Virus record (IMG/VR): IMGVR_UViG_3300031787_001061
Coordinates: 1 to 20,020 of that record
Strand: one strand, 5' to 3'
DNA: 20,020 nucleotides
From: a virus
Every line of letters starts with the position of its first letter. Position 1 is the stretch's first letter. Position numbers and translations under genes: made by a program. The notes below the pieces were generated by a model, which was not told the DNA's origin, searched no databases, and worked only from the letters and a program-made list of their open reading frames with translations. Below are positions 5,826-19,798 of this stretch, piece by piece.

Positions 5826-6817
5826 TATAATACTCCAGGTGAACCAAAGTTGGTTATATATTTCTCCAAGATTTTATCAACTAAAAGATTGCCTGTTCCA
5901 AAGAAAGATCCTTTGTCTACTTGAACTTTAAATTGATCTGTTGAATAGTTTGTAATATATCTCTTATGATATTCTAATCTGCCACACTTTAAATCATCGA
6001 TAAGCATTAGAATTGCATCTTTAATATCATAGGGGACTACTTTATATCCCGTGGCCAATTGGAACAAGTAGTTCCATCCCATAGGGAATGTTACTCCTGG
6101 TGCTACAGCAATTGTGTTTGGGCTATCTTCTGAGTCATACATATATACGGAATCAGAGTATGCTAGTGGTACTCCTCTTGGAAAACTTGCTTGACGAATA
6201 TAAGAATCTGATTGTTGCGTCCAGTCTTTAATAATTGCAGTTTTATCTTTTGTTAAAAGGTAGTTCCACTGTCCATCTCCTTGTGCTTGCGGATTGTCAT
6301 CATAATCCCAAACAAGTTGATTATTTTCATATGCCTTCAAAATTAAATATGTTCTATCCCAAACTGGCATGAAGTCTGTATTATTTCCAATTGTTTCATA
6401 CCAAGATCTTTCATAGTAAAATCCTCCAGGAACAATTGAATCAATAATTGCTCTTGCTAATCCCTCATAATATGTATAATCTTTAATTTCTGTTGCTGTT
6501 GTTCCAAGTGTGCTTGGATCTACATATGGTCGCATAATCTCTAGATTATCTTCAACCACAATATCGCCTTCTTCTGCGCTTGTAGACGCAGTAGTATAAA
6601 CAGCATCATAAATTGTCAGCGCATATGACTCGTCGTATGTATTAAACATGTCTGGAAGAATATATGTGATCTGAGAACTTGCTGAAGATGTTATAGTTGC
6701 TGTAACATCATTTACATTTCGTGTACCCTCATTAATAACCAAAATATAATCAGTATTTGGCTCTGGTACATCATATGTAATTGAGAGCGGATATGGTGGG
6801 AGTCTTAAGATCTGCAT
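5825..6817 (-). CDS. head-tail adaptor with extra N-terminal beta domain (probable)
   Basis: A 330-residue protein beginning MQILRLPPYP. It starts in a TAATG overlap with the preceding gene and ends in another. Residues about 10-75 look like a small beta-sandwich (LSITYDVPEP, YILVINEGT, YALTIYDAVY). From about residue 110 a helical adaptor-like part begins (YYEGLARAIIDSIV, GGFYYERSWY), and the end (DIKDAILMLIDDLKCGRLEY) is typical of connector helices that touch the portal. Usual adaptor proteins are about 100-200 residues, so this is a large version with an added domain. The order after capsid and before stopper supports the name; no experimental homologue was recognised. Confidence 0.5.
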   Translation of the reverse strand: MQILRLPPYPLSITYDVPEPNTDYILVINEGTRNVNDVTATITSSASSQITYILPDMFNTYDESYALTIYDAVYTTASTSAEEGDIVVEDNLEIMRPYVDPSTLGTTATEIKDYTYYEGLARAIIDSIVPGGFYYERSWYETIGNNTDFMPVWDRTYLILKAYENNQLVWDYDDNPQAQGDGQWNYLLTKDKTAIIKDWTQQSDSYIRQASFPRGVPLAYSDSVYMYDSEDSPNTIAVAPGVTFPMGWNYLFQLATGYKVVPYDIKDAILMLIDDLKCGRLEYHKRYITNYSTDQFKVQVDKGSFFGTGNLLVDKILEKYITNFGSPGVL

Positions 6818-7167
6818 TATACTTTACCGTAATGTTTGGCTACCTCTTCAGGCTTTGCTAGTCGCACTGCCTTATGCTTTAGCCATTTTTCGGATACCTC
6901 CTTGGTAACAATATTATAACCCCTTTGGAGTTGCCCCACGCCATTCCAATGTAGGTTTCTTTCTGAAAATACCGCAATTTTTTCTTGAACGGTATCTGAC
7001 TTTACTTCTTGATGATCTTCTCTAGGAACAAAAGGTAAAATTGCTTCTAGTAAATCTAGTTTTGTTGTTGCACCAAATACATCAATATCGTTTTTCTTTG
7101 CATATGATTTTAATTGTGGTACTGTCATCTTATTGAATTTTTCTACTACTTCTTTTGTTGTTGCCAT
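6817..7167 (-). CDS. small protein with SAP/HeH-like N-terminus in the head region
   Basis: A 116-residue protein beginning MATTKEVVEKF. The ATG at 7167 has a GGAGG site five bases upstream; an in-frame GTG at 7179 would place the start inside that site. Residues 14-45 (TVPQLKSYAKKNDIDVF, then TKLDLLEAIL) form a helix-extended-loop-helix pattern like SAP, LEM or Rho-N domains, which often bind nucleic acid or act as small protein clamps. The rest is charged and includes RNLHWNGVGQLQRGYN. In many phages a short protein of this kind lies between capsid and adaptor genes. Its task here is unknown. Its stop overlaps the next start by one base. Confidence 0.6.
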   Translation of the reverse strand: MATTKEVVEKFNKMTVPQLKSYAKKNDIDVFGATTKLDLLEAILPFVPREDHQEVKSDTVQEKIAVFSERNLHWNGVGQLQRGYNIVTKEVSEKWLKHKAVRLAKPEEVAKHYGKV

Positions 7168-7183
7168 TTTATCCTCCACTGCT

Positions 7184-7192
7184 ATTATATCA
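7184..7192 (-). promoter_or_regulatory. extended -10 promoter candidate for connector block
   Basis: The minus strand reads TGATATAAT, 16 bases before the ATG at 7167 and just before a GGAGG ribosome binding site. The best -35 (TTTATA) at 17 bases is weak. It could drive the coupled set of genes from 7167 to 4140. Confidence 0.5.
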
Positions 7193-7199
7193 GAAATGC

Positions 7200-7412
7200 C
7201 TATTTATATAAACTTTGTGGTTTCTTCACCCCAGAAGGAGTTCCACTGATAATTACATTTTCTCCAAAGTTTGCTGTTGGTATACAACCAAGAGCATATT
7301 TTTGTGTTATTACTCCATTAGGTCCACTAATGATTGTTCCTATACCGCCAACTGCAATACATCCATCACCACTGTGTTGATGATCTACTGTTGGACTTCC
7401 TGGATATGACAT
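7200..7412 (-). CDS. 70-residue paralogue of the capsid N-terminal arm
   Basis: This small gene starts at an ATG with an AGGAG site four bases upstream. Its product is homologous to residues about 10-80 of the major capsid protein encoded immediately upstream. Over the first 23 aligned residues 17 are identical, including PTV.HQH.GDG and GGIG. After an equal 15-residue spacer both have LG.I.T.N, then an aromatic and G, then GTP.G. The DNA is also similar (about 7338-7406 with 8523-8591), which supports descent by duplication. It has no signal peptide or membrane segment and is rich in Gly, Pro and Ile. Possible roles are a minor capsid, cement or surface protein, or a partner that binds where the capsid arm binds. 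The function is unknown. Confidence 0.75.
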   Translation of the reverse strand: MSYPGSPTVDHQHSGDGCIAVGGIGTIISGPNGVITQKYALGCIPTANFGENVIISGTPSGVKKPQSLYK

Positions 7413-7427
7413 TTGTTCTCCTAATGT

Positions 7428-7462
7428 GATAAAGGAGGACAGTTTTACCTGCCCTCCTTATC
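7428..7462 (-). terminator. strong hairpin after major capsid gene
   Basis: Arms 7462-7449 and 7442-7428 pair over about 14 bp with a single bulged base (GATAAGGAGGGCAG with CTGTCCTCCTTTATC on the minus strand) around a six-base loop. It lies 16 bases after the capsid stop. There is no T-run after the stem on the minus strand, so it may attenuate transcription, stabilise the capsid mRNA 3' end or hide the SD-like AAGGAGG in its 5' arm, instead of being a classic terminator. Confidence 0.6.
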
Positions 7463-7478
7463 GGTTAGTTTTTACAAA

Positions 7479-8618
7479 CTATGCAGTTGGGTCAACGGCT
7501 GCATCTGCGTAAGCAACTGCATCCTGCTCTTCCCATTGAATACCAAAGCGGACGAATACTGTGTATTCAATTGTATCCTTCTTTGGCTTGTACTCACGGT
7601 TTACCGTGATATCACGCTGGAAGCCCCAAACACGGTTTGCAGGGAATGTCAAATCGACATAATCTGCTGGGTAATAAGGTACTTCCATAACATCGACACC
7701 GAGAACACGAGTTGTACGTGCTCCACCGAATGTCTGTCCAACACCATCAAGGTATTGCTGACGATTACGCTCTGTACCGCCAGTACGTGGTGCAAACGCT
7801 TCAGCAATAGCATCAGCGAGTGTACCATTATTCTTAACAATTCCTTGGAAAGCATCTGTACCAGCATAGAACTTTAGGTTCTGCTTGACAGCACGATACT
7901 TACGTGGCATTGCAAGAATAATGTCCTGCATGACTTCTGTTGTCCAGTTGTCATCGGTTACAGTAACGAGTGCTTCGTGAGCATCTCCGTCATTCTGTAC
8001 CTTGTAGACGAAACCTTCCATGATTGAAAGGAAGTCGCCTGTTGAACCATCACCATTAATAGCGAGGTCTTCGATATCGTTAGCAAATGCATTGGTCATC
8101 AAGCGAACTAGATGATCTTCCAACGCACCTCCTTCAATATTGTCTTCAAGTGATTCTGTAGATACTTCCCAATCAAGACGAATCTTTTTGGTTGTAAGTT
8201 CTACCTTTGTGAATGTAGCACCTGTATTTGTGTAGTCATTGCTTGCCTGTGCAGCAGCACGGATTACACGCTCACCAACGTTAACCTTTTCGATTTCCAT
8301 GGTGTTTGCTCGCATTGTAACTCTACGACCATCCTTGGCGAGAACTGTTGCATCCCACACGTAGTCGATGAAGCGGCGAGCCTGCTCTGGCAAAAGAATA
8401 CCACCTGGAGTACCAGTTGGATTTACAGCGTTTGCGCCATCAGTATCGCCCCAATTTGGAGTTGCGATGTTACCAAGGTTTGCACCAATATTGCTTGTGG
8501 TTGGGTTAGTTGCTGTTGCACCACCGATTCCACCTGAAGCAAAAGAACCATCACCATCATGTTGATGTGCGACAGTTGGAGCGCCTGGGTAATTCTTTAC
8601 GATTTCTTGTTCCGACAT
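7479..8618 (-). CDS. major capsid protein (HK97 fold)
   Basis: A 379-residue protein beginning MSEQEIVKNY. The ATG at 8618 follows AGGAGG with eight bases between; the GTG at 8627 overlaps that site and is less likely. Residues 1-75 form a Gly/Thr/Asn-rich arm with an HQHDGDG motif. From about 75 the capsid core begins (GGILLPEQARRFIDYVW) and continues with features of HK97-like subunits: EKVNVGERVIRAA, KIRLDWEVSTESLEDN, and a P-domain or A-domain end with NRVWGFQRDITV and RFGIQWEEQDAVAYAD. The arm is not a helical delta domain, which agrees with a separate scaffold being fused to the protease. GC is higher than in the connector genes, as expected for a very abundant protein. It is followed by a hairpin and by the arm paralogue. 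Confidence 0.9.
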   Translation of the reverse strand: MSEQEIVKNYPGAPTVAHQHDGDGSFASGGIGGATATNPTTSNIGANLGNIATPNWGDTDGANAVNPTGTPGGILLPEQARRFIDYVWDATVLAKDGRRVTMRANTMEIEKVNVGERVIRAAAQASNDYTNTGATFTKVELTTKKIRLDWEVSTESLEDNIEGGALEDHLVRLMTNAFANDIEDLAINGDGSTGDFLSIMEGFVYKVQNDGDAHEALVTVTDDNWTTEVMQDIILAMPRKYRAVKQNLKFYAGTDAFQGIVKNNGTLADAIAEAFAPRTGGTERNRQQYLDGVGQTFGGARTTRVLGVDVMEVPYYPADYVDLTFPANRVWGFQRDITVNREYKPKKDTIEYTVFVRFGIQWEEQDAVAYADAAVDPTA

Positions 8619-8646: not shown

Positions 8647-9969
8647 TTATTTAAATAGGTCGGCATTTTTGAGGAAACGACCGCCCCATAGGGATTTTTG
8701 AGTTCTCACTTCTGAAAACTCCTGTACGATCTCGCCTAGATCGCCAGACTTGCGGAATGCGGTATCTTTTTCTACAAGATCTACTCGCTTTCCAAACTCA
8801 TTAAAAGTTCCCTTTACTTGGCTTACCTCATTTGCTACAGCCTTAACTTCGCCTGTAACTGTTTCAAGGGACTTTGTGATTGCTTCAACGTTAGCCTGCA
8901 TAGACTTAACTGTTTCAGCAAGATTGCTCAAGGCATTAGTAAGAGAATCATTAATATCAGCAACAGACTTTGCAATCTCTGCTGCAGTATCAACAACTGC
9001 ATCTACTGACTTTTCCGCTGCACTATCATCAACAGGAGCGTCTGCTACTGGTGCTGATTCTGCCACTGGCTCTGCAACAGGTGCTTCTGCAGGAACTTCT
9101 GCTGGAGCATCTACTAGAGCCTCTGCTACAGCATCTGCTGGAGCCTCTGGAGCAACCTCAACATTTTCAACTACTTCTGCTGCATCTGCAACTGGTGCAT
9201 CTACAACTTCCATTGTTTCTTCTGTCATAGGATTTTCCTCCTTTGTCATCTTAATTGTTCTAATGCCTTTTGCACTATCAACTAAGAACTTTACTGTTGT
9301 GATATCTTCTTGATCTTCAACAAACCCAATGTTTTGCATTGAGCAGTTGCAAGATGGACAACTTTCATCAGAATCTTTTGAAAGTCTTACGATATCATCT
9401 GTCTTGCACCAATAAACTGTATCAACAACTGCCTTTGCCAAATACCCGCCAAGTTGTCCCTTTTCAATAGAGATAACATTAGCAAATTGATTTGCTGGGT
9501 TGTCGACAAGCGATAGTTCGTGCAAGTCATACTCTTTAATTATACGCACTGATTTATCAATTTTTTCATCATACATGTCGTCAGACTTTGTAATGTTTCC
9601 ACCGATGGAAAAACCAGTCAAAGTTCCATCAAGTACTTTTTCCCAGGTATCTTGTGCACCTTTGGAGACGTATGCAGAAACATAAACTCCGCTATAAAAC
9701 TTTTTAGCCTGTGGATCAAAATAACGATCCTCTTTAAAAGAAACAACCTTACCGACAGCACTGGGTTGATGCATTTCACGAAGGTTGCCACGGAATTTCT
9801 TAAATGCCTCTATACTTGCTTCTGTCGTGACAATATCACCTTGCTTATCTATATTATCTAGAGTAGCAAAACCAGAAACAATACGACGTTCTTGATCTAC
9901 TTTGCCAATGGGCATTGAAAAGCGAACATTGTCGCCATCAGTAACCCAGTGTGCTTTATTTATAGTCAT
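8647..9969 (-). CDS. prohead protease (XkdF/U35-like) fused to scaffold-like coiled coil
   Basis: A 440-residue protein beginning MTINKAHWVT. Residues about 15-172 are a prohead protease of the HK97/XkdF type: REMHQPSAVG carries the likely catalytic His67, GFSIGG the likely Ser121, and HELSLVDNPAN (150-160) is the conserved end motif. Residues 188-209 contain Cys188, Cys204, Cys207 and Cys209 in a zinc-knuckle-like pattern. Residues about 250-320 are a low-complexity linker of Ala, Pro, Val and Glu. Residues about 325-405 are a predicted coiled coil (LTNALSNLAETVKSM) like a scaffold or delta domain. It would guide capsid assembly and then cleave it. The ATG has no ribosome binding site; an extended -10 motif lies nine bases upstream, so a nearly leaderless message is likely. 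It lies between portal and capsid genes, as expected. Confidence 0.83.
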   Translation of the reverse strand: MTINKAHWVTDGDNVRFSMPIGKVDQERRIVSGFATLDNIDKQGDIVTTEASIEAFKKFRGNLREMHQPSAVGKVVSFKEDRYFDPQAKKFYSGVYVSAYVSKGAQDTWEKVLDGTLTGFSIGGNITKSDDMYDEKIDKSVRIIKEYDLHELSLVDNPANQFANVISIEKGQLGGYLAKAVVDTVYWCKTDDIVRLSKDSDESCPSCNCSMQNIGFVEDQEDITTVKFLVDSAKGIRTIKMTKEENPMTEETMEVVDAPVADAAEVVENVEVAPEAPADAVAEALVDAPAEVPAEAPVAEPVAESAPVADAPVDDSAAEKSVDAVVDTAAEIAKSVADINDSLTNALSNLAETVKSMQANVEAITKSLETVTGEVKAVANEVSQVKGTFNEFGKRVDLVEKDTAFRKSGDLGEIVQEFSEVRTQKSLWGGRFLKNADLFK

Positions 9970-10010: not shown

Positions 10011-11654
10011 TTATTGAGACGCTCTTCCTTCACCTTGTGGATTTCTTCCAGAGATAGTTGTAGGAGAGTCTGATTCATTATTGGCTCTTTCTGCATCCCT
10101 TTCTCTGTTACCCGCCAAGTTTGCCCTAGCGTCTGTTGCCTGTCGTGGACTCATTGTAAATGGGTCATCTCCATCTGGACGCTGTGACATATTTAGCATT
10201 TCACGAGCCTCATTAGGAGTAATAACCTGAGTCTTGACATAACGTTCAATAATCTGAGATTGAGCAATTTCATCTGTAAGAGTCAATTCATTGAATTTAA
10301 GTTCAAGAATATCAGTCTTTTCTTTAATAATCTTATTTACAATCTTTTCTAGATGACGCTGTGCTGGACGTGATACCTGCTCTTTGAATGTTCTGTCTTG
10401 TGACAAAGCAGCAGCGATAGCAGCCGAATCAGATCCTCCAAGTTTTGAAATAGGTACTTGGTGAGCAACTAAAATATCATCACGATTTTGTTTACGATAT
10501 TTTTCAAATGATCCTTCTTGAACACCGTTTTCAATAGGCTGCATACTAAACTCAACCTTATTTCCATCTGTATCTCCAGGAAGTGGGATATATAGCGTTC
10601 TGTGGTTTTGCCCCTTTAGTCCTGTTTGCATAAAACGGAACATCTTATCTTCAGCATCAGCAGAGAGTTTTGCACCCTTTACTGTAATAATATATCTTGG
10701 TACCGCCTTGTTTTGGAAGTAATCAATATTATATTGAGCAGCAAGAGAGTCTCCAACAAGTGAAGAAACTGCAGATAGAATATCTGGAACGCCATAAAAT
10801 GTGTTAAGTGGAGAGTATTGCTTGAAATGTAGAATCTCATTAGGACGTGGATCTGCAGTAAGCGGATTTATATTAGTTGCCCCAAAGTTTCTAAAATATA
10901 CTAACTTCTGACCAATAATCTGTACAAACCCATCACGTAAACGACGAACACGAACTGTGGTTGCTGGAATATGTCCAACATATCCAATTTCTCCAGTTAC
11001 TGTACGACCAATTTCAAGGAATCCATTTCCTGTGGCCTGAACATCTGTATAAAACTTTTCCATTGTTTGCTGGAAAGTATCCTCATCATTTAATGATTCT
11101 AGCCAGTCACGAACCTCTAGTTTCATACGCTCAACACGACGACGAGCACGGTCAACAGCCTCATCATCATCGTTCATCTCAAAACGCAACATTGTGCGAT
11201 CTGTCAAATCAAACTTGTATCCAAGACCAACAACATTTTCTACCTTAGCATCAATAGCAGCATGATTAGCAAAAGATGTATCATAATAACTTGCTAGTTC
11301 ATATAGATTGTATGGTGGTGTAATAACATCAAATAGACCATAGCCATTTTGATATACCGTTCCAGGATTAATCTGTTTTGACTGTGCACCCTCTTTACCA
11401 GAAGCAAAAGCATTTGCATCATTTAGGTATTGTGGGGTTGGATTAATTGCTGGGTAGCGTGGATTATAACTATCCATTGGCAAAGTATATTTAGCCATAT
11501 TTCTAGTTGTTCTACGCTTAAAGTTTGTATCCATTCCAGACAAGTCTTTTAGTTGATCCCATGACTTTAAAAATGGATCATTCTCAATAAACTGATTATT
11601 ATCTGTATACTCAGTATTTAGACTTGCTTGAATATATTCAAATTCTCTATCCAT
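10011..11654 (-). CDS. portal protein (PBSX XkdE-like)
   Basis: A 547-residue protein beginning MDREFEYIQA. The ATG overlaps the end of the upstream gene by eight bases, so translation is coupled. Portal features include the N-terminal region with PPYNLYELASYYDTSFANHA (about 112-131), a wing region (IDAKVENVVGLGY), the YSPLNTFYGVPDILSAV motif that leads into the stem, LAAQYNIDYFQNKAVPRYII, and a clip or crown end. The PBSX/XkdE-type pattern HQVPISKLGG is present. The C-terminal 60 residues are polar and probably disordered (RANLAGNRERDAERANNESD). Twelve copies would form the DNA channel at one capsid vertex. The gene precedes the protease and capsid genes as in most tailed phages; no terminase is visible in this window. 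Confidence 0.9.
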   Translation of the reverse strand: MDREFEYIQASLNTEYTDNNQFIENDPFLKSWDQLKDLSGMDTNFKRRTTRNMAKYTLPMDSYNPRYPAINPTPQYLNDANAFASGKEGAQSKQINPGTVYQNGYGLFDVITPPYNLYELASYYDTSFANHAAIDAKVENVVGLGYKFDLTDRTMLRFEMNDDDEAVDRARRRVERMKLEVRDWLESLNDEDTFQQTMEKFYTDVQATGNGFLEIGRTVTGEIGYVGHIPATTVRVRRLRDGFVQIIGQKLVYFRNFGATNINPLTADPRPNEILHFKQYSPLNTFYGVPDILSAVSSLVGDSLAAQYNIDYFQNKAVPRYIITVKGAKLSADAEDKMFRFMQTGLKGQNHRTLYIPLPGDTDGNKVEFSMQPIENGVQEGSFEKYRKQNRDDILVAHQVPISKLGGSDSAAIAAALSQDRTFKEQVSRPAQRHLEKIVNKIIKEKTDILELKFNELTLTDEIAQSQIIERYVKTQVITPNEAREMLNMSQRPDGDDPFTMSPRQATDARANLAGNRERDAERANNESDSPTTISGRNPQGEGRASQ

Positions 11655-15710: not shown

Positions 15711-17741
15711 TTAGGATATTTTAATCATACATGTATCTGTAGTACAGTATGCTTCGCCTTCAGCCTCTAAATTGTCTACCCCGTCATAAATGGCAGACCA
15801 ATTAATCTTCTTTATCTCACCAACATAGGCGTTATATTCGTCTTTTGTAATTTGAGTGTATGGTTGCTGTGGGTATGTTTTATTACCCATAGGCAAAAAT
15901 GACACAGCCTTGAGTTGACCCTCATACATATGAAGTGCTGGAGCAACATGCTCTGTCTCTTTGTCCTTGTCAAATGAAAGGGTAACAGAAACACCATTGT
16001 CTGACCAATACTTTTGAGTTGTAGCAGCAAGACCAATCTTCTCAAATAAAGTGACATCTTTTTCAGATCTAGCATGTCCAGAATGAACAGGGAAATATAC
16101 AACAGTTGTATTTTGTGATACAAGATCTGCTTCCATTTTATACCCTGCTGCTTTAAACAAACTAATCATTGGATCTTGGTTACCAAATCGGATTGCACGA
16201 AGAAAGAAGTTTCCTCCTGGTCCCCAGTGAACTCCTGGAGTTGCACCAGATAGAAGTGATACCGAGCCTGAAGGCTTTACTGTTGTTACACGAATTGATT
16301 CACGAACACATAGCCATTCAGAATATGAATGATCATATTTACGAATTGTTTTATATCCTTCGTCCATCCACTCACGAACTGTTGGCAAGCCATTTTGATC
16401 TGCAAATGATGCAATACCAGTTAATGATGTTCCGATTCGACGATTGCGTTGCATAATACCATTTGTAATCTGCCAATGTGTAGGAACAAGTGTAACTGTT
16501 TTGCCGTAGAGATAAGCAAACTTCAAAGTACGCAAGAAATCTTCTTTTGATTCGTGACGATTTAGATGAACCTCAACAAGAGTACAAAGTTCATAGGATT
16601 CTAATGGTTGTTCTGCACATGGATTAAATCCCATAACACGATAGTCTTTTCCATCTGCTGGATCTGCAAGACGACCATAGTTACGAGCAACATCAAGCCA
16701 AATAAATCCTGGCTCTCCATTATTTGCAATTAAATCAACATAGTCTTCATATTTTGTTCCCACCTTAGCAGCAATAGAGTTATTGCTCATCCATGCCCAA
16801 CCAGGATTTTCTGGATCAAATGAATTTCTGTCAGGAAATACTTCTGAATTCTTTAGATTAATAAAGTCTTTATCTTCTGGCAAACCCAAGGCAAGTGTTG
16901 CAGAACGACGAACGTTACCAGCAACAACGCAGGTACCAATAAGATTTACAACATCTACAATTGCACGAGAGTCAAGAGTTTCTCCTGCTCTATCTCCAAT
17001 AACTTTACGAATTGTTTCATGCAATTTAATAAGTGGTGCTGGACCTGAAGCGGTACCACCAAATCCCTTAATAGGAGCACCAAGTGGTCTAATCTTAGAA
17101 TAATCAAAATTAATCTTAGCCTGTCCTGGCTTTAGGTATGAATTAAGAAGAAGTCTTACAGACTCTACCCATCCTTCTCTTGTATCAGGAATTTCATATG
17201 TTATTTCTTCTTTGGTATTGGGATATATTTCCATACCCTTTTCTTGGCCAAGGGTGTCAAATCCTACCCCTACCCCAAGCATCAAGGCATCCATAACCCA
17301 GCCAAAAAGGGCACCTGGATCGTTTCTATCAATGTCCCTAGTAGATACCATGGCGCAGTTCTGCAAGGCTGCCGAATTGCGTCTCTCCATCGTCATAGGG
17401 GTACCAAAAGCCCATAGCCCACGTCCTGGTGGAGTCCATTTCAAATTAAACATTCTGTCATATGCTTCTTGGGCTGATTTCTGTGCTTTATTGTCATTCC
17501 AAGGTAAACGGTTTTCTTTAGCATGGTTCTTTTGAACAGAATACATTCCTTCAATTACCCTCTTGCAAACCTCATGCCAGCGTTCCTTTGTGCCATCTTC
17601 CTTGACTCTGGAGTATGTACGGATAAAGGTAATCTCACCTAAAGAGTTGCCACCTGCATCGGTAAAGCCAAAAGGAGCCTCAATATCCTTATATTTATTA
17701 ACAAATTCTTCCAAAAGCCTAAAAGAAAATACATCTGACAT
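15711..17741 (-). CDS. nrdJ: adenosylcobalamin-dependent ribonucleoside-triphosphate reductase (class II, monomeric RTPR type)
   Basis: A 676-residue enzyme that turns ribonucleoside triphosphates into deoxyribonucleotides, using adenosylcobalamin to make a thiyl radical, with no oxygen requirement. It matches the Lactobacillus leichmannii RTPR family (739 residues). NPCAE gives Asn373, radical Cys375 and Glu377; Cys386 and Cys129 (LQNCAMVST) form the reducing pair; the C-terminal CTTDTC (Cys666, Cys671) is the shuttle pair. VKPSGSVSLL at 488-497 fits the substrate phosphate loop. All key residues are present, with no frameshift and no intein. The ATG follows a weak AGAGG site. A promoter lies 62 bases upstream in an AT-rich region with inverted repeats. 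It is an auxiliary metabolic gene placed inside the structural cluster in the same direction, so it may be expressed late or by its own control. No cobalamin riboswitch is seen upstream. Confidence 0.93.
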   Translation of the reverse strand: MSDVFSFRLLEEFVNKYKDIEAPFGFTDAGGNSLGEITFIRTYSRVKEDGTKERWHEVCKRVIEGMYSVQKNHAKENRLPWNDNKAQKSAQEAYDRMFNLKWTPPGRGLWAFGTPMTMERRNSAALQNCAMVSTRDIDRNDPGALFGWVMDALMLGVGVGFDTLGQEKGMEIYPNTKEEITYEIPDTREGWVESVRLLLNSYLKPGQAKINFDYSKIRPLGAPIKGFGGTASGPAPLIKLHETIRKVIGDRAGETLDSRAIVDVVNLIGTCVVAGNVRRSATLALGLPEDKDFINLKNSEVFPDRNSFDPENPGWAWMSNNSIAAKVGTKYEDYVDLIANNGEPGFIWLDVARNYGRLADPADGKDYRVMGFNPCAEQPLESYELCTLVEVHLNRHESKEDFLRTLKFAYLYGKTVTLVPTHWQITNGIMQRNRRIGTSLTGIASFADQNGLPTVREWMDEGYKTIRKYDHSYSEWLCVRESIRVTTVKPSGSVSLLSGATPGVHWGPGGNFFLRAIRFGNQDPMISLFKAAGYKMEADLVSQNTTVVYFPVHSGHARSEKDVTLFEKIGLAATTQKYWSDNGVSVTLSFDKDKETEHVAPALHMYEGQLKAVSFLPMGNKTYPQQPYTQITKDEYNAYVGEIKKINWSAIYDGVDNLEAEGEAYCTTDTCMIKIS

Positions 17742-17917: not shown

Positions 17918-19798
17918 TTAAGCAGACTTTCCATTCTTCAAATCTCCCCATGTTAGAGAGGCTGGAATGAATCCTTGTAATGCTATTGTACCTGTAGCAT
18001 CAGGAAGTGTGATTGTTCTGTCTGCTGTTGGATTTGTAACTGTTAGAGTAGTTTCAAACTCATCTGCAGAAGAACCTTCAAAAACAATGCTTGAGTCATT
18101 AAGTGTAAGGCCAGTAATTATTGGGCTAGTTAAAGTCTTATTAGTAAATGTTTCAGATCCTGCAAGGGTAGCAAAATCAGCATCTGTAAGAGCGGTATTA
18201 AACTGAGCAATAGTTCCTGAAATAGTGTTGTTTCCAAGAGCAATTGTTTTATTTGTTAGTGTTTGTGCAGTACTAACATCAACCGTTGTTCCAGTATTAA
18301 TACTAAAAGTATTACCTGTTAAAGTTAGTCCAGTACCAGCCAAATATGTGCCAGCACCTGAGAACTGAGTAAATACGATAGGGTCTGTTCCTAGAGTGGT
18401 AACTGTTTGAGTCTGAACCCATCCAGTATTGTCATTTACTGTACCACCAGAAACGAATACGAAATCGCCTGGATCAATTTCTGCTGCTGTGTTATAGTCT
18501 GCTGCACGAGCAAGATCTCCATTAATTACAACATAAATACCGTTTTCTGATGTTGTGCTCTGATTCTTAAGAAGAACACGATCATTGATAGAAAGTGAAA
18601 CGCCGTCCAACGTTGCTGGAGCAGTTGGCAAAGCAATATTGCTAGTTGAAGCAGCAACTACAGAAGCATGAACATGCAATCCTTCTGCCACTCCATCAAC
18701 ATAAGCCTTTGTAGCAGCATCTGATGCATTTGTAGGGGTACCAAGACCAGTTACTTTATAAGTTGCTGCTGACAAGTCTGCAGAAAGTGCTGTTCCAGAA
18801 CCTAGAGTTTTATTGGTAAGTGTTTGAGAACTAGATGTTGTAGCAATTGTAGAATCAACGGCAATTGTTACTGCAGCAGATCCATCATAAGAAGTACCTG
18901 AAAGACCTGTGCTGATTGTCAAAGCATTTGGATTTACGGCGGTAACAGTAGCAGATCCACCTAGTGAAATTGAACTACCATTTACTGTAATTGAAGAATT
19001 AGTTAGTGATGTATTAGCAAGGTTTGTTATTGTATTGCTAGTACCTGAAATTGATTTATTGCTTAATGTTTCAGAGCCAGAAATGGTTGCAAAATCTGCA
19101 TCCGTAAGTGCTGAGTTGAACTCTGCTAGTGTTCCAGAAACAGTATTTGAACCAAGAGCAATTGTTTTATTAGTAAAGGTAAGGGTATTATTTGTGGTAG
19201 CAACGACTGTGGTATCAACATTAAGAGTTACGGTACCACTTGTACCTCCTCCTGTTAAACCTGTGCCCGCTGTAACTCCTTCAATATCTCCAGCAATAGA
19301 GATACTTCCACCAAGAGCAACTGGTGTACCATTAATAGTAATTCCAGAATTAGAAAGTTTATCATTAGCAATAGAGCCAGCAAGCATAGCATTTGTGACT
19401 GTTCCAGTATCTCCACTAGTAATCATATTTCCAGTGACATTTGGAACTGTAATTGTTGCATCTTGTGTAGGTTCTACTACAGTAATTGTGGTTTGATAAG
19501 AATTTGTTGTTGCACCCTCAAAAATTACAGAAGATGCAGTTAAAACATTTTTATTAGAATCTAATTCAGCAACACCGTTTACTGCGCCTTTTTCTGTAAG
19601 TTCAATATAGTTACCAAGACTTGTAGTAAGTTCAGCATCTGTAACCATATAGTCAAGAGATGACCAGGCTGTAGAACCGTCACCAATTTTGATTTGACCT
19701 AGGGTAGTATTGTATCCAATTTCACCTTCATTAAGAATTGGGTCTGCGGTATTCCAGTCAGAGGTGGAACCTCTACGCATTTGAATTCTAACGGCCAC
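17918..19798 (-). CDS. repeat-containing tail fibre protein
   Basis: A 626-residue protein beginning MAVRIQMRRGSTSDWNTADP. The GTG start at 19798 has GGAGG six bases upstream. Residues about 6-50 (LNEGEIGYNT, IGDGSTAWSSL) are the N-terminal attachment module common in phage fibres. The body is built of Thr/Ser/Asn/Gly-rich repeats such as TLTNKTIALG and ALTDADFAT, and of FEG...TPTADRTITLPDATG-type units near residues 92-130 and again near 570-605. Residues about 365-465 form a domain seen in many tail fibres (GLHVHASV, NDRVLLKNQ, ENGIYVV). The protein is likely trimeric and fibrous and may touch the host surface. It lies far upstream of the tape measure gene. The residue repeats are nearly identical in parts, so the gene may recombine internally. 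Confidence 0.82.
   Translation of the reverse strand: MAVRIQMRRGSTSDWNTADPILNEGEIGYNTTLGQIKIGDGSTAWSSLDYMVTDAELTTSLGNYIELTEKGAVNGVAELDSNKNVLTASSVIFEGATTNSYQTTITVVEPTQDATITVPNVTGNMITSGDTGTVTNAMLAGSIANDKLSNSGITINGTPVALGGSISIAGDIEGVTAGTGLTGGGTSGTVTLNVDTTVVATTNNTLTFTNKTIALGSNTVSGTLAEFNSALTDADFATISGSETLSNKSISGTSNTITNLANTSLTNSSITVNGSSISLGGSATVTAVNPNALTISTGLSGTSYDGSAAVTIAVDSTIATTSSSQTLTNKTLGSGTALSADLSAATYKVTGLGTPTNASDAATKAYVDGVAEGLHVHASVVAASTSNIALPTAPATLDGVSLSINDRVLLKNQSTTSENGIYVVINGDLARAADYNTAAEIDPGDFVFVSGGTVNDNTGWVQTQTVTTLGTDPIVFTQFSGAGTYLAGTGLTLTGNTFSINTGTTVDVSTAQTLTNKTIALGNNTISGTIAQFNTALTDADFATLAGSETFTNKTLTSPIITGLTLNDSSIVFEGSSADEFETTLTVTNPTADRTITLPDATGTIALQGFIPASLTWGDLKNGKSA
18147..18262 (-). 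repeat. internal fibre repeat, copy 2
   Basis: About 115 bases encoding TNKTIALGNNTISG, ALTDADFAT and GSETFTNKT, closely similar to 19065-19180 in the same gene and frame. It encodes a repeated fibre module. Confidence 0.7.
19065..19180 (-). repeat. internal fibre repeat, copy 1
   Basis: About 115 bases encoding TNKTIALGSNTVSG, ALTDADFAT and GSETLSNKS; the partner of 18147-18262. The protein is more alike than the DNA, so this is an old duplication under selection. Confidence 0.7.

Follow-up and report, generated by a model that had tools for sequence, protein, structure and literature searches.

The gene directly downstream of the major capsid protein (MCP) gene in an uncultured virus encodes a 70-residue, free-standing homologue of the N-terminal arm of that MCP. 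A new observation reported here is that the first ~15 residues of the small protein and of the MCP arm co-vary within each genome. From these sequence comparisons, it is somewhat more probable than not that the small protein is an accessory capsid protein derived from the MCP arm, one that would dock at MCP-arm sites and place its basic tail on an acidic partner. The analyzed stretch of 20,020 bases, which we will call the window, comes from an uncultured virus record and carries its head module on the minus strand. The relevant features are as follows.

10011-11654 (-): portal
8647-9969 (-): protease
7479-8618 (-): MCP gene, HK97-type, from PHROG matches and best Foldseek matches
8547-8591 (-): tip motif of the MCP arm, residues 10-24, which co-varies with the tip of the small protein
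8400-8591 (-): inserted N-terminal arm of the MCP, residues 10-73, absent in the Streptomyces and Rhodococcus relatives
7428-7462 (-): hairpin between the MCP stop codon and the small gene, read from the sequence
7418-7422 (-): AGGAG, likely ribosome-binding site of the small gene, read from the sequence
7200-7412 (-): small gene, 70-residue free-standing arm homologue, from BLASTP, hhalign, and dN/dS
7362-7406 (-): YPG...HxH.GDG tip motif of the small protein, residues 3-17
7184-7212 (-): promoter-like site with TATAAT, 3' of the small gene and ahead of 6817-7179, from a consensus scan
6817-7179 (-): next gene, weak SAP/Rho_N-like N-terminus, syntenic marker (phrog_3281, E=8.8e-8)

A sequence-only reading of this DNA had proposed that the capsid arm is duplicated as a separate protein, and BLASTP, hhalign, shuffled sequences, and the homologues in other genomes all strongly support this proposal, which also withstands the refuting conditions set in that reading. 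BLASTP aligns the small protein to the MCP with 29 of 70 residues identical and 5 gap positions (E=8e-14, composition-based statistics), and an hhalign comparison of 15 small proteins with 18 arms gives a significant profile match along the arm (probability 99.6%, E=2.3e-24, 71 columns). The Smith-Waterman score between the two proteins is 121, while shuffled sequences reach a mean of 29.9 (sd 5.0, maximum 61, n=2000) and the next best of the window's 104 stop-to-stop frames with 50 or more residues reaches 44, leaving the MCP as the sole strong partner. Chance similarity and glycine-rich low complexity are therefore ruled out. The 17 identities in the first 23 aligned residues and the spacing of 15 residues from GGIG to LG in both proteins, both pointed out in the earlier reading, have been confirmed by eye on the translations. 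The same reading had taken the small protein as a full-length homologue of about the first 80 residues of the MCP, which is correct for the stretch from YPG to about GTPGG and incorrect for the first eight to nine MCP residues (MSEQEIVKN), which are missing. Its first residue corresponds to MCP residue nine; from there it tracks the arm as far as GTPxG and stops at the point where the capsid core would start, carrying a basic tail in place of the capsid fold. After GTPxG, all 55 distinct small proteins have two to six lysine or arginine residues and no aspartate or glutamate. This basic C-terminus and the middle motif GxIIxGPxGxITQ are common to the small proteins and absent from the arms, which argues that the small proteins are one family and not repeated fresh copies. 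The median dN/dS of the small gene is 0.131, with all values below 0.5 in 350 same-length pairs, and on this comparison it is a real gene under purifying selection.

The MCP gene starts with the ATG at 8618, its stop codon ends at 7479, and its 379-residue product matches phrog_1623 (E=6.6e-72) and phrog_10, major head protein (E=3.4e-6), with no Pfam match and no PDB sequence match. Its structure model is of low confidence (pTM 0.53) and gives the P4 procapsid as the best Foldseek match (E=2.1e-12), with HK97 also among the matches, placing the product among the HK97-fold MCPs by sequence family and by fold. The relatives of this MCP are from phages of Streptomyces and Rhodococcus, and one further relative, whose arm is reduced and which is not accompanied by a small gene, comes from a 4.9-kb contig in a metagenome-assembled genome of Actinomycetota. 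Based on these relatives, the phages of this group likely have an actinobacterial host. The MCP residues MSEQEIVKN correspond to the N-terminus of the arm-less relatives, of which those of Streptomyces phages TunaTartare and Tomas and Rhodococcus phage Weasels2 were inspected; these show MSxxxLxKVI followed almost at once by GGxLLxxEQ. The capsid modules of Stanwilliamsviridae and Weaselvirus carry portal, protease, and MCP in the order of the window. Their MCPs are 38-44% identical to the window MCP over residues about 73-367, and the gene after the MCP resembles the window gene at 6817-7179 by eye in two of three cases, but these MCPs have no arm, and the annotation of the three inspected regions shows no small gene between the MCP and the next gene. 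The product of 6817-7179 itself has Rho_N and SAP matches below the Pfam cut-offs. A tblastn search of cultured phages with the 88-residue arm region found nothing better than E=0.3, with matches mostly at the capsid-core end.

Arms of middle length have also been found. Loci L279-L330 form a separate MCP clade with arms of 46-64 residues, their own motif MSNELLEK...TFAST.GG.G.H, and no small gene. This clade lies away from the long arms on the MCP tree, so a smooth series of lengthening arms is rejected, and the separate motif points to arm extension more than once. Some MCPs of the long clade have a different tip and no small gene after the MCP, namely L332 (an arm without the YPG tip) and the L106-like loci (KSFNHPTGDG instead).

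The small gene was found at 37 loci in the first scan, and further scans used other small-protein and MCP queries. It lies directly 3' of the MCP in 152 entries, a number that includes the window and some contigs fetched twice; removal of 59 identical pairs, 5 truncated arms, and 3 truncated or differently started small proteins leaves 85 distinct usable pairs. Among the 321 loci with an MCP frame, it directly follows the MCP in 111. The other matches at E<0.1 in those loci are L004, where the MCP is split, L130, where a small gene is present but its MCP is not in the locus, and L117, where the MCP is doubled. The last of these, on the same contig as L361 (IMGVR_UViG_3300012286_000260), has a second MCP-like frame of 398 codons at about 4502-5699 of L117 with a scrambled 5' end, which overlaps the MCP end and precedes the small gene; it is either a tandem MCP duplication or an assembly chimera. 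A tblastn search of 50,697 phage records with the small protein gave no match at E up to 1.

The occurrence of the small gene follows the length of the arm. Among 233 distinct MCPs with at least 400 bp of downstream sequence, the gene accompanies 60 of 160 long-arm MCPs and none of 70 with short or middle-length arms (33 and 37, respectively), while three more (L005, L011, L068) have the gene and an MCP start cut by the contig end and were set aside; this count leaves out L117 and the 16 MCP fragments in which the core-start motif is missing. Of the long arms that carry HxH, 57 are accompanied by the gene and 15 are not; for long arms that do not carry it, the corresponding counts are 3 and 85. 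Because many long non-HxH rows come from one query lineage, the counts do not represent population frequencies, nor are they unbiased, since the loci were fetched with MCP or small-protein queries. On a tree of the MCP core (125 of 224 rows; the Weasels2 branch, at the base of the long-arm clade, is flagged as long), the long arms form one clade (SH-aLRT 100) and the short arms lie outside it. The presence of the small gene changes 12 times on this tree, a number inflated by a thinning step that kept rows differing in small-gene status. The association of HxH with gene presence comes down to two independent pairs on supported branches and is not significant. Near-identical MCPs can differ in the gene, which is present in L084 and absent in L082.

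Since the long arms form one clade and the gene is scattered inside it and often absent, the small gene is likely arm-derived and accessory. In the most likely order of events, as judged from the sequences, the arm came first and the small gene arose from it by partial duplication; the opposite order, in which a small protein was inserted into the MCP, would be less likely. Of 28 whole records searched with profiles, nine have the small gene and the MCP arm, 12 the arm only, and seven neither. No third or relocated copy of the arm was detected by profile in these records, some of which may be fragments, or in the fetched loci. Also, the DNA pattern of the tip motif occurs twice in five of six records, with no third copy, and is absent from the sixth, which has a different motif.

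Within each genome, the two tips match. All 85 distinct pairs agree in HxH, which 75 have in both proteins and 10 in neither, although the 10 pairs without HxH may reflect very few evolutionary events. An earlier, smaller count gave 56 pairs with HxH in both, 3 in neither, and a single discordant pair, L067, whose small reading frame has no normal start and which was excluded from the tip-pairing permutations in the seven-lineage set and from the codon comparison. With seven lineages clustered at 90% MCP-core identity, the true tip pairing is the single best of 5040 permutations (p=3.5e-4 in the random-permutation version), and it is again the single best of 120 permutations among the five HxH lineages. 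In the enlarged set, the tip gives Z values of 3.8, 4.3, and 5.2 at three cluster cut-offs yielding 7, 9, and 15 clusters, and the observed value is reached by 29, 5, and 0 of 100,000 permutations, respectively. Along the remainder of the arm the effect is far smaller (Z of 2.6, 2.8, and 2.3 in the enlarged set; 642 of 5040 permutations in the seven lineages but 3 of 120 among the HxH lineages), and this weak same-lineage signal means that the co-variation is not confined to the tip. In the clade of MCPs starting with MSEDI, 25 of 28 pairs have one of three tip pairings, HGHD-HSH(N/D), HTHT-HTH(V/I), or HAHS-HNHF, and the other three have none of these. Had the two proteins diverged independently, a small protein would be no more like the arm of its own genome than like other arms, and the observed similarity to its own arm is greater.

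The similarity of the DNA, described as visible in the earlier reading, is only modest. Where a residue is identical in both proteins, the codon also agrees 54% of the time within the motif and 43% of the time elsewhere in the arm (59 pairs; 0.537 and 0.431, with 0.447 and 0.373 expected). Because this agreement is only slightly above expectation, the tip match is kept mainly at the protein level. Recent gene conversion is unsupported, as the codon identity is far below the level such an event leaves; the slight excess in both regions makes old gene conversion possible.

The AlphaFold2 monomer model of the small protein has a pLDDT of 45.6, with three low-confidence strands at residues 18-37 and no confident structure, and the MCP arm is likewise mostly below 50 pLDDT with no confident structure. 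The low values for the small protein would fit a segment that becomes ordered on binding, and prove nothing. Searches of the small family against Pfam, PHROG, and PDB sequence families gave no match at a meaningful score, and among 33 relatives there was a single chance-level match in each of the Pfam and PHROG libraries. The small protein thus belongs to no decoration-protein family described there, and at only 70 residues it is not an MCP paralogue of the T4 gp24 kind with the HK97 fold kept.

A G/C-rich, stable hairpin 3' of the MCP gene is conserved in the long-arm relatives with or without the small gene, with minimum free energies of -21.2 to -29.1 for similar stems (29 valid of 30 rows listed; raw values with no shuffle control). 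In the window it has no U-tract, and a scan for U-tract terminators did not call it. A Shine-Dalgarno-like sequence lies upstream of 75 of 85 distinct small genes. The promoter-like site at 7184-7212 has 10 of 12 matches and a TG before the -10 element, with seven such sites in the whole stretch and 4.4 expected. TATAAT occurs within 80 bases after the small stop codon in 63 of 63 rows and within 110 bases after the MCP in all 100 long-arm rows without the small gene, while it lies between the MCP and the small gene in one of the 63. In L094 compared with L097, the small gene and its ribosome site appear to be inserted between the hairpin and the promoter. As a result of this layout, transcription of the small gene, if it occurs, seems to be by extension of the capsid transcript.

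The earlier reading had suggested a competing or complementing capsid module, and the general idea is supported by the co-variation of tips from the same genome and by the restriction of the gene to long-arm MCPs. Since the tips must match, the simplest reading is that both proteins bind at one common site or that their arms bundle together in the capsid. We propose that partial duplication of the extended MCP arm gave rise to a gene for an accessory protein present in the capsid. The protein alone would probably be largely unfolded, and its tip (YPG...HxH.G.G or the equivalent in the lineage) would dock where MCP arms dock, so that the protein either mixes with the MCP arms or fills arm sites that the MCP leaves free. 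The basic tail may contact something acidic, which could be the packaged DNA, within reach if the small protein is internal, or an acidic part of the protease or scaffold protein. The small protein would then stabilize or tune the shell and be non-essential. The absence of the small gene beside 100 of 160 long-arm MCPs, including the 15 with HxH, counts against such docking. It is plausible, if tentative, to regard the small protein as an assembly arm released as a trans-acting subunit, with free arms joining the MCP-arm network and the matched tip serving as a lineage-specific lock (HxH in most lineages, LN.x.G in others).

The same co-variation data would also fit a role in assembly only, in which the small protein competes with the MCP arm or limits or nucleates shell growth inside the prohead, held by arm-like contacts and an acidic scaffold and hardly or not retained in the finished virion. 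Because the gene lies past the hairpin at the 3' end of the capsid transcript, and only the one row has a TATAAT in between, the protein may be made in smaller amounts, and the protease gene next to the MCP encodes an acidic coiled-coil stretch (read from the translation; coiled-coil families are matched) that could receive the basic tail. On the other hand, an essential assembly role is hard to reconcile with the loss of the gene beside the near-identical MCP of L082, and we regard the assembly-only role as unlikely. More doubtful still is that both proteins independently show the same tip to a third partner, such as a host surface, a metal ion, or a phage protein, in which case they need neither touch nor share a capsid site. 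In its favour, the co-variation is strongest in the tip, HxH presumably resembles a metal site, and the small family has a weak, chance-level similarity to the trimeric T4 gp5 spike (E=2-2.3). A third phage protein with the motif is nevertheless not apparent, as the profile matched only the MCP and the small gene in the 28 records, and the DNA pattern of the motif gave only its two copies in five of six records and none in the sixth with the different motif. The least probable of these explanations is a selfish or decaying, functionless partial duplicate kept alike at the tip by recurrent gene conversion or re-duplication. The frequent gain or loss on the tree and the slight codon excess are consistent with it, but purifying selection at the dN/dS given above, the middle and basic tail that cannot have been re-copied from each arm, and the distance from the codon identity of recent conversion all argue against it.

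Second capsid genes can arise by duplication of the MCP gene, as in T4, where the vertex protein gp24 is a paralogue of the MCP gp23. While gp24 keeps the whole capsid fold, the small protein copies the arm alone. The fold of an accessory capsid protein is usually unrelated to that of the shell protein, which leaves the origin of such proteins obscure. If the proposed docking is correct, a capsid cement has here been made from the shell protein's own arm instead of an unrelated fold. The donor (the MCP arm), the product (the free arm), relatives without the arm copy, and co-varying pairs are all available, a natural and testable series for how a shell protein yields its own cement and which residues govern entry into the capsid. 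The matched tips predict specificity, with weaker binding expected for cross-lineage pairs.

In the cited passages, the closest described proteins are the gp4 proteins of Patience and Adjutor (102 and 54 residues), accessory head or capsid stabilization proteins of actinobacteriophages (PMC10635136). They are random coil in solution by circular dichroism and ordered only in the capsid, where gp4 threads between MCP subunits beside the N-arm, and their length differs among relatives (PMC10635136). Compared by description, the small protein is like gp4 in being small and probably from an actinobacteriophage, but those passages describe no origin of gp4 from an MCP arm (PMC10635136), while the small protein is arm-homologous. 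The decoration or cement proteins gpD, Soc, Dec, and P74-26 gp87 are, as far as the cited passages describe them, likewise small, accessory, and encoded near the MCP, and P74-26 gp87 binds through a disordered N-terminal Dec-arm (PMC7602432). The small protein resembles them in size and in the position of its gene, and differs in matching no known family and in having no predicted folded domain. No description of a free-standing MCP arm was found in open-licence PMC papers searched by words, not ideas. The isolated Nanopelagicales phages E7 and F5 have 39-kb genomes in the cited passages, while the largest records here exceed 100 kb (PMC10202952).

Two further genes of the window have been noted. 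The product of the gene at 17918-19798 (-) is fibre-like: it contains an Mtd_N domain (E=6.5e-14) and also matches phrog_2647, annotated 'head decoration' (E=2.6e-32). A ribonucleotide reductase gene lies amid the structural genes at 15711-17741 (-), and its product has an RNR alpha domain (E=1.2e-32) and a B12-dependent-type insertion domain (E=2.7e-18).
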